Shown here: in pieces, positions 19,937 to 21,466 of the stretch
Layout of the letters: each line of letters begins with the position of its first letter
Numbering within the stretch: the first letter of the stretch is position 1
Assembly (NCBI RefSeq): GCF_000308855.1
Contig: NZ_BAGM01000073.1
Span: forward strand, 1 to 64,000
Direction: 5' to 3'
Source of the DNA: Nocardia veterana NBRC 100344
GTDB taxonomy: Bacteria; Actinomycetota; Actinomycetes; Mycobacteriales; Mycobacteriaceae
Length of the DNA stretch: 64,000 bases
Notes under the pieces: model-generated
Told to the model about the DNA's origin: nothing
Database searches by the model: none
Seen by the model: the letters and a program-made list of their open reading frames with translations, nothing else
Program-made: the position numbers and the translations under genes

Positions 19937-19955
19937 GGGGCTTGCGGCAAGGCCC
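19937..19955. promoter_or_regulatory. Rifamycin-associated element (RAE) upstream of rox
   Basis: The 19-bp sequence GGGGCTTGCGGCAAGGCCC, part of a longer imperfect inverted repeat (about 19935-19958), matches the RAE as I recall it from rifamycin-inactivation genes of actinomycetes. It lies about 90 bp before the rox start. Its TTGCGG (19942-19947) could serve as a -35 with CACAAT (19967-19972) as -10 over a 19-bp spacer; that reading is tentative. Confidence 0.85.
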
Positions 19956-20044
19956 CGGTGGTGCTGCACAATCGTCCGGCCATCGCCTGGACCTGCGGAA
20001 ACTCGGGCAATCGGCGCAACCCACCACCTGTCGAACGGGGTTTC

Positions 20045-21466
20045 ATGATTGACGCGATCATTGTCGGCGCCGGGCCCACCGGATTGATGCTGGCGTGCGA
20101 GCTGCGGTTGCACGGCCTGCATCCGGTCGTACTGGAGAAGGCGACCGAGCCGACGAAGGTTGTCCGCTCGATGGGGCTGCACGTGCGCAGTATCGAAGTG
20201 ATGGATCAGCGGGGCCTGCTGGATCGGTTCCTCGCCGCCGGGCGCACCTATCCGCTCGGCGGTTTCTTCGGCGGCATCACGGCGCCGGAGCCACATCTGG
20301 ACTCCGCGCACGCCTACGTGCTCGGCATCCCGCAGACCGTCAGCGACCGATTGCTCGCCGAACGGGCCGACGAGCTGGGTGTGGAGGTCCGGCGCGGCTG
20401 TGAACTGGTCGGACTGGAGCAGGACGAGGACGGCGTCGACGTCCGGGTCGCCGACGGGGCCCGGCTGCGGGCCCAGTTCGTGGTGGGATGCGACGGTGGG
20501 CGCAGTACGGTGCGCAAACTGGCCGGGATCGGCTTTCCGGGCGAGCCGACCCGCGTCGAGACACTGCTGGGCGAGGTGGAGCTCACCGCGGCGCCCGAGA
20601 CGGTCGCCGCCGTGGTGACCGAGGTGCGCAAGACCCAGCGGCGATTCGGGGTGGGCCCACTGGGCGACGGGTTCTACCGGATCGTCGTCCCGGCCGCGGA
20701 ACTCGCCGAGGACCGCAGCGCCCCGCCGAGCCTGGCGGAGGTGAAACAGCAGCTGCGGGCGACCGCCGGCACCGATTTCGGGGTGCATTCGGCCCGGTGG
20801 CTGTCACGATTCGGCGATGCCACCCGACTGGCCGACCGCTACCGGTCCGGTCGGGTCCTGCTGGCCGGTGACGCCGCGCATATTCATCCGCCGGTCGGCG
20901 GGCAGGGCCTCAACCTCGGCATCCAGGACGCGTTCAATCTCGGCTGGAAACTGGCCGCGCAGCTCGCGGGCTGGGCACCGGCGGGACTGCTGGACAGCTA
21001 TGAGAGCGAACGACGCCCGGTGGCGGCCGCCGTGCTGGACAACACCCGGGCCCAGATGGAGCTGATCTCACTCGAGCCCGGCGCGCAGGCGGTGCATCGG
21101 CTGTTGTCCGAGCTCACCCGGTTCGAGGAGGTGAATCGGTTCCTCACCGAAAAGATCACCGGCACCGCGATCCGCTACGACTTCGGGCCCGGGCACGAGT
21201 TGCTCGGACGCCGGCTGCGTGATCTGCGGTTGCGCCGCGGCCGGCTCTATGCGCTGATGCACGAGGGCCGCGGCCTCCTCGTGGACCGCACCGGCGAGCT
21301 GTCGGTGGCCGGCTGGGCGGACCGGGTCGATCACGTCGTCGACGGCAGCGACGAACTGGATGTTCCCGCGGTACTGCTGCGGCCGGACGGACACGTGGCG
21401 TGGGTGGGGGACGACCAGCGTGACCTCACCGACCATCTGCCGACTTGGTTCGGCGCCGCCCGCTAG
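20045..21466 (+). CDS. rox: Rifampicin monooxygenase (FAD-dependent, class A)
   Basis: Rox/RIFMO hydroxylates the rifamycin naphthoquinone using NADPH and FAD and so breaks the drug. The 473-aa protein has the same length as Nocardia RIFMO and, from memory of that protein, matches it nearly throughout: FAD motif GAGPTG (residues 8-13), [21 protein letters not shown], the DG motif [27 protein letters not shown] and the tail [17 protein letters not shown]. Start ATG 20045 aligns with the family start. The rifamycin-associated element upstream supports induction by rifamycins. It predicts intrinsic rifampicin inactivation. Confidence 0.93.

Follow-up and report, generated by a model that had tools for sequence, protein, structure and literature searches.

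The locus studied here raises the question of how a soil actinomycete that carries a gene for rifampicin inactivation might sense the drug and turn that gene on. The gene lies in a 64,000-nt stretch of DNA from Nocardia veterana NBRC 100344, referred to below as the window, and is preceded by a rifamycin-associated element (RAE), an element reportedly described by Spanogiannopoulos in 2014. The RAE is known as a 19-bp palindrome that stands before rifamycin-resistance genes and helR (PMC10194278; PMC10719064) and is needed for rifamycin induction at other loci (PMC10719064). Its sensing mechanism is called unsolved in the available text of PMC12802891 and PMC10719064. An earlier note on this DNA, made from the letters, had pointed to a 19-bp element about 90 bp before a 473-aa FAD monooxygenase and had read the latter as a rifampicin monooxygenase. 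The element (GGGGCTTGCGGCAAGGCCC) is present exactly, the 473-aa ORF begins with ATG after a gap of 89 nt, and the range given for the pair, 19937-21466, runs correctly from the first base of the RAE to the end of the coding sequence (Table 1).

Table 1. Positions in the window of rox, the RAE and the predicted promoter elements around it
Feature	Position	Strand	Basis
RAE, near-palindrome GGG-N-CTTGC-G-GCAAG-N-CCC	19937..19955	+	exact match; core GGGNCTTGCNGCAAGNCCC common to relatives
Predicted shared -35 elements in the TTGCGGCAA core: sense TTGCGG (19942-19947), antisense TTGCCG (19950-19945)	19942..19950		sequence and spacing in 163 sites; putative function
Predicted antisense -10, TATATT (consensus TANNNT), 11 nt beyond the RAE	19920..19925	-	TANNNT in 159/163 sites
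Predicted antisense transcription start, G, 24 nt upstream of the RAE	19913	-	G in 159/163 sites
Predicted sense -10 (P2), CACAAT, 11 nt beyond the RAE	19967..19972	+	NANNNT in 162/163 sites
Approximate sense P2 start, G at 19978 or 19979	~19979	+	estimated from the usual -10 distance
rox, rifampin monooxygenase, 473 aa, FAD_binding_3 and Rng_hyd_C	20045..21466	+	ORF, PDB, NCBIfam, Pfam

The reading of the gene product stood up well. Against the NCBIfam model NF033145, the protein scored 871.4 bits over residues 2-472, that is, its whole length, where the cut-off is 800, and among the 22 family matches in the genome it was the only one to exceed this cut-off. Its top matches in the PDB were 5vqb ('Rifampin monooxygenase', 739.8 bits) and 5kow (715.9 bits), the latter deposited as 'Pentachlorophenol 4-monooxygenase' and 'Putative rifampin monooxygenase' and taken by us to be the RIFMO of N. 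farcinica, while the third-ranked entry scored 363.9. The FAD_binding_3 family is broad, and some RAE modules have behind them FAD monooxygenases under the rifampin cut-off, so that one could think of an aromatic hydroxylase for another substrate that has an RAE beside it by coincidence; we regard this as extremely improbable, given the NF033145 score and the lead of about 350 bits that 5vqb and 5kow hold over the next PDB match, which also means that the best alignment is not to a non-rifamycin hydroxylase. The ORF is, as these models classify it, a rifampicin monooxygenase of the Rox/RIFMO type, for which conversion of rifampicin is predicted. Around rox lie ORFs with amidase (16326-17795), enoyl-CoA hydratase (21530-22294) and FMN reductase (23460-24041) domains, all on the minus strand, and sigma-70 region 2 and region 4 domains occur in adjacent ORFs about 3 kb from rox (24102-25064, plus strand; 25079-26530, minus strand).

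At up to 3 mismatches, the RAE before rox is the sole such place in the window, read on both strands; shuffled windows held 0.11 matches on average, and two matches were found in none of 100 shuffles. The earlier note had proposed that the genome be searched for more copies of the 19-mer. The genome (6.79 Mb in 210 contigs) holds exactly two exact copies, the one in the window and one at 36223-36241 of contig C205, which lies upstream of helR. One further place, on contig C129, matches at 3 mismatches and is at chance level, because the reversed control pattern gives 16 matches. The C205 copy stands 85 nt upstream of a 729-aa ORF. The best PDB match of its product is 6yxu, a HelD presumably from M. 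smegmatis, and the protein scored 1403.7 against HelD_MYCSM NF041465 (cut-off 1051) and 1367.2 against HelR_2 NF041258 (cut-off 1100). By these assignments the gene is helR, and the RAE genes found in the strain are rox and helR; no match to Arr (PF12120) was found in this genome. In both copies the RAE is preceded at ten bases by TTCAATATAT and followed at eleven bases by CACAAT.

These shared flanks were followed in a larger sample. RAE sites at up to 2 mismatches were taken from two draws of genomes that overlap in part, one of 249 from the order, of which 161 had a match, and one of 345 from the class, of which 163 did; 120 places were picked by hand among the matches listed, with the core pattern favoured. 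Loci L002, L003, L005 and L006 were dropped as duplicates or off-target, as were sites lying less than about 100 bp from the end of a locus (e.g., L056) and sites that did not fit [N]GG-N-CTTGY-N-GCAAG-N-CC[N], leaving 176 usable sites. The orientation of 163 of them, including the two of the Nocardia genome itself, was set by the downstream gene and not by the motif: helR-like in 83, FAD monooxygenase in 39, rph-like in 22, arr in 12 and rgt-like in 7. The names helR-like, rph-like and rgt-like rest on clusters and their representatives; the arr representative was over its cut-off and L063 over the HelR cut-off, and the Rph representative and the two Rgt ones, truncated at the locus end, had those models as their best match, with scores under the cut-offs. 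That the element marks rifamycin-resistance genes, as the earlier note had it, is stated in the available text of PMC10194278 and PMC10719064 and fits this sample.

In 159 of the 163 gene-oriented sites, across five unrelated protein groups, an antisense TANNNT box lies outside the RAE at a distance of exactly 11 nt, and in 162 a sense NANNNT box lies at exactly the same distance on the other side; the loci are related, so these counts are not independent events. At control offsets of 0-7 and 16-59 nt, antisense TANNNT was found at a mean of 0.42 of the 163 sites, with 5 as the highest count. Two of the four exceptions are shifts of a single base, nearer in L079 and farther in L161. Among the 13 sites that had no automatic gene assignment and were left out of the 163, five are without TANNNT at exactly 11 nt, and one of these five, L140, has it at 10 (by eye). 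Both boxes are read as -10 elements from what is generally known of sigma-A promoters. Since both lie 19 nt from TTGCSG within the palindrome, the palindrome would supply overlapping -35 elements to two divergent promoters, and at rox the RAE overlaps the predicted -35 of the sense promoter (P2), as far as sequence can tell. The sense -10 is poor (CANANT), its first base being C in 90% of the 122 helR and rox sites, and the antisense -10 is near consensus. Counted from its approximate start, the P2 leader of rox would be about 65 nt long. These data suggest that the RAE is the centre of a promoter-like module of about 75 bp, larger than the 19-mer.

A further feature appears on the antisense side. 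When 9-nt arms were compared, self-complementarity peaked in arms starting at the predicted antisense +1, the conserved G of Table 1, with at least 8 pairs in 47% of 209 distinct loci; the figure was 42% and 43% for arms starting one and two bases earlier and 38% for arms starting one base later, and complementarity often reaches one to three bases before the predicted +1. All 9 pairs were formed in 65 of the 209 loci versus 1.5% of shuffles. Within the 99 loci with at least 8 pairs, a T-tract (at least 4 T in the next 8 bases) follows on the antisense side in 56 and on the sense side in 6. By a criterion of our own, a terminator-like hairpin is present at the predicted antisense start in 70 of the 209 modules versus 18 of 627 shuffled ones. 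Changes on both sides were seen at 7 of 9 stem pairs, a value matched by none of 500 shuffles, in an alignment (A1) of 61 of the 70 hairpins that were preselected for the hairpin, nine having been left out by hand. The first 50 nt, simply folded, showed a modest signal, with a mean z of -1.27 and 65 of 163 sites below -1.5. The helR copy of this genome passes the terminator criterion. By the same criterion, a terminator-like hairpin is absent from the rox copy of the window, from every arr locus and from two thirds of the modules overall.

Conservation of the RAE columns in the 163 sites comes partly from selecting the sites by the RAE. A second set of loci was selected only by similarity to the M. 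smegmatis HelD protein. Among the best 80 of 199 relatives, 23 loci carry the module, and all 23 have both boxes. A module profile, trained on RAE sites, scored 10 to 118 in these 23 and -57 or less, like shuffles, in the other 57, two of which (L295 and L301) have less than 250 bp upstream of the match. Across the 23 loci the RAE varies at columns R1, R4, R16 and R19 and is invariant at the others (R2-R3, R5-R15 and R17-R18); the invariance of R2-R3 and R17-R18 is more than a -35 needs. M. smegmatis helD itself, for which start sites are published, is absent from the best 80 of the 199 loci, so its upstream promoter P1 could not be placed in this set.

Within the class, a 53-bp module pattern with up to 3 mismatches allowed was found in 159 of 345 genomes; the genus gave 54 of 59, and a draw from the phylum 31 of 296. 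Since the reversed control pattern gave none among the matches listed and 77 of one set of 80 modules stand before one of the five gene groups, the other 3 being before transporters, the pattern points to uncharacterised candidates, namely a DrrAB-type pump, an MFS pump and PRK06834. Outside the class, 16 stretches, fetched by place and including three at the same places as earlier loci, have an FAD monooxygenase (10), an rph-like gene (5) or an arr-like gene (1) behind the module; in this part of the Actinomycetota (L363-L380), some modules have CTTGNNNCAAG as the RAE centre and CATAAT as the sense -10. No viral copy was found in IMG/VR with the one exact pattern searched, and none in a phage collection. 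On a 74-kb linear plasmid of Rhodococcus ruber, the module is followed in turn by rox, a cytochrome P450/oxidoreductase and an MFS transporter (L389:3799-9332). The module also occurs on the 'plasmid 2' record (2.66 Mb) of N. farcinica NCTC11134 (L347:4028), and at the same place in G577 (L257), a genome of the same genus group as the window, it precedes a helR. In three loci (L016, L092 and L163) an RAE stands before what appear by eye to be remnants of rox or rph.

The DrrAB-type ABC transporter lies behind the module in three genomes of one family (f28; L157 from the earlier sample, L226 and L227), with a DrrA-like ABC ATPase in each, followed by an ABC-2 type permease in L227 and, by eye, in L226. 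The L227 ATPase scored 325.8 against TIGR01188 (cut-off 312.45); the permease scored 183 against TIGR01247, under the cut-off of 223, and was over the ABC2_membrane cut-off. In a further locus (L228:2108-3589) the module precedes a DHA2-family MFS transporter that scored 304.1 against TIGR00711 (cut-off 230.2). Both pumps are candidates for rifamycin efflux. The 39 FAD monooxygenases in the 163 sites are not all close to the Rox of the window: 28 share at least 60% identity with it, and 11 less than 50%. All six complete proteins tested at 42-46% identity, from other RAE loci (L217:648-2120, L221:1452-2954, L367, L373, L375 and L376) scored 866-940 against NF005303 (PRK06834; cut-off 625) and 466-484 against NF033145, under its cut-off of 800, which makes PRK06834, an uncharacterised FAD monooxygenase subfamily, a candidate family behind the RAE. 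Four others (L255, L259, L266 and L366; 37-41% identity) matched no NCBIfam model at E<=1e-120. L366 is a complete protein with 37% identity that matched neither the PRK06834 nor the rifampin model at this limit, and the two of the four scanned with Pfam belong to FAD_binding_3. Calling every FAD monooxygenase behind an RAE rox was rejected on these identities and on the six proteins under the rifampin cut-off.

How could so many unrelated genes have come to lie behind one module? Of 199 non-rgt loci, 25 have shortly behind the RAE a reading frame that matches the N-terminus of Rgt, a glycosyltransferase (MRVLLSTYGSRGDVEP), better than did any of 212 shuffled controls, the profile having been built from 6 of the 13 rgt loci that were also scored. 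Such fossils precede helR (13 of 102), FAD monooxygenase (6 of 60) and rph (6 of 25) genes and none of the 12 arr genes; the rox copy of the window is not among the 25. They lie +55 to +73 beyond the RAE in L011, L054, L087, L104, L143, L150, L235 and others, and the match in L254 (+104) is off the usual place and may be due to chance. In L143 the Rgt N-terminus is fused in frame to an rph-like gene. These remains suggest promoter capture, in which an RAE-rgt start acquired other resistance genes behind it, and so hint at the way in which genes of unrelated families came to share a switch. A conserved leader (CTGCGGAAA-like) was found in 70 of 240 loci versus 2 of 240 shuffled ones; it was considered as an RNA element and rejected, the rgt-start fossils suggesting shared descent instead.

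The element, the gene, their positions, the conservation, the hairpins and the spread over unrelated genes can be read from the DNA itself. What they might do together is a matter of interpretation, and we give about even chances to a mechanism in which the palindromic -35 serves both a strong antisense promoter and a weak sense one, and a drug-responsive factor flips them. The two promoters, P2 with its poor -10 and the antisense promoter with its good one, would lie symmetrically, their boxes 11 nt outside the RAE, and the TTGC-N-GCAA core would serve as the overlapping -35s of both. Because the -35s overlap, one RNA polymerase at a time should bind. In drug-free cells, polymerase would mostly fire the antisense promoter and the resistance gene would stay quiet; at about a third of the loci examined, the antisense polymerase would run into a terminator that starts close to the first base it transcribes. 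With rifamycin present, a factor on the palindrome would most likely shut the antisense side, recruit polymerase to P2, or both, and transcription would flip towards the resistance gene. An active antisense promoter, the silencing of P2 by it, a factor on the RAE and the induction of rox in this strain, which the earlier note had also supposed, are what we infer from this arrangement.

The factor enters this mechanism for a reason. Competition for polymerase between two overlapping promoters was rejected as a sufficient explanation, as our simple steady-state model, in which the two promoters strictly exclude each other and polymerase acts alone, gave no induction in 200,000 parameter sets (maximum fold 0.99, or 1.00 with instant stripping of drug-bound polymerase). 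This result, together with the invariant palindrome arms, argues for a separate RAE-binding factor. A wider and more tentative proposal is that the actinobacterial RAE is a direction switch: drug-free antisense RNA would be ended after about 25-35 nt at many loci by a terminator starting at +1, rifamycin would reverse the direction through the palindrome factor, Actinomycetota and Bacillota would hold antisense guards of different geometry, and the module would have spread by promoter capture, leaving the rgt-start fossils behind.

The same invariant arms would fit a simpler view, that the RAE is a plain operator at which a rifamycin-responsive activator or repressor acts on P2, the upstream -10 being incidental or serving to insulate the neighbouring gene. 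A factor of this kind is assumed in the available text of PMC12802891 and PMC10719064, and in the 23 protein-selected loci the arms are invariant beyond what a -35 needs. Columns R4 and R16 point the same way: they are complementary in 27 of 163 sites versus 29.3 expected if independent, which fits recognition as DNA and not an RNA hairpin. However, a plain operator leaves unexplained why the antisense -10 keeps one fixed distance in 159 of 163 sites and why hairpins start at or next to the predicted antisense +1, and we consider it possible but unlikely to be the whole account. The R4 and R16 columns, most often a G-A mismatch (84 of 163), with complementarity not above expectation, also count against the RAE being an RNA hairpin in a leader transcript. 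The palindrome would sit at the start of a P1 transcript, yet no Rfam match was found in 19700-20200 at E<=1, and we disfavour this very improbable reading.

The upstream box might instead belong to the sense strand. M. smegmatis helD has two sense promoters, with the RAE over the -35 of P2 and with P1 starting about 20 bp upstream of the RAE; the available text of PMC10719064, which reports them, describes no antisense promoter there. It also cites a report of polymerase as the sensor at M. smegmatis rpoBC and proposes two-promoter control. By analogy with rpoBC, and with B. subtilis helD, where polymerase is likewise the reported sensor but the promoters converge, the upstream -10 could be that of a sense P1 in tandem with P2, the traffic from P1 sweeping P2 until sub-MIC drug stalls P1 and P2 fires, so that polymerase itself is the sensor. 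Taken on the sense strand, the upstream box does fit YANNNT in 147 of 163 sites, and the implied starts are about 18 bp apart, as in bidirectional promoters (PMC10268837). Its first base on that strand is T in just 40 of 163 sites, whereas TANNNT is kept on the antisense strand in 159; by eye, the place of a sense -35 shows no -35-like conservation, and the T-tracts behind the hairpin lie on the antisense side. Tandem sense promoters therefore strike us as unlikely, and, given the weak sense box, the upstream -10 may still be a sense P1 or work in both directions. With these alternatives weighed, the antisense and sense promoters sharing a palindromic -35 and flipped by a factor remain our preferred reading.

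Rox and the RAE each belong to already known kinds. The Rox of the window shares the whole-length alignment and the FAD domains with the Rox/RIFMO enzymes (5vqb and 5kow) and differs from them by ordinary sequence divergence, with no further difference noted; likewise, the C205 gene is a HelD_MYCSM equivalog of HelR/HelD class II (M. smegmatis HelD, 6yxu), with no difference noted. The published RAE (in the available text of PMC10194278 and PMC10719064) is likewise a 19-bp palindrome before rifamycin-resistance genes and helR, and at M. smegmatis helD it lies over the -35 of P2, whereas the module described here spans about 75 bp, with a conserved predicted antisense -10, a start base and often a terminator-like hairpin. 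No antisense promoter at an RAE was found in the available text of the literature searched, including PMC12802891, PMC10719064, PMC10194278, PMC7283461 and PMC8655204; the primary RAE and HelR papers lie outside this scope and may have it. At most, the module shows a known kind in a new light. Nevertheless, a larger, two-way promoter around the RAE is a lead on how these bacteria sense rifampicin, and the bases named here (antisense -10, start, hairpin, shared -35 and palindrome arms) reduce the sensing question to a few point mutants.

The nearest parallel comes from Bacillus subtilis, in which convergent sense and antisense promoters at helD and pps sense rifampicin (PMC12802891). That alarm pairs the weaker sense promoter of a rifampicin-resistance gene with an antisense promoter that has a 19-bp spacer and yields a short, terminated RNA. 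Both promoters have predicted counterparts in the RAE module; a terminated RNA might have one at the loci with a terminator-like hairpin, which include the helR copy of this genome and not the rox copy of the window. In B. subtilis, however, the promoters converge, lie 39 bp apart and can both be occupied, whereas here they would stand back to back and diverge from a shared core with overlapping -35s; the available text of PMC12802891 itself sets the actinobacterial RAE genes apart from the B. subtilis system and allows for a further factor. If the direction switch is true, an antisense promoter guards rifamycin-resistance genes in both Actinomycetota and Bacillota, and the two phyla arrived at it through different geometries. 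The module also recalls bidirectional promoters with symmetric -10 elements, whose starts lie 18 bp apart (PMC10268837): both have divergent starts in near-symmetric DNA, and the upstream -10 of the module could work both ways. The difference is that the centre of symmetry here is the palindromic -35 region, flanked by two separate -10 boxes.
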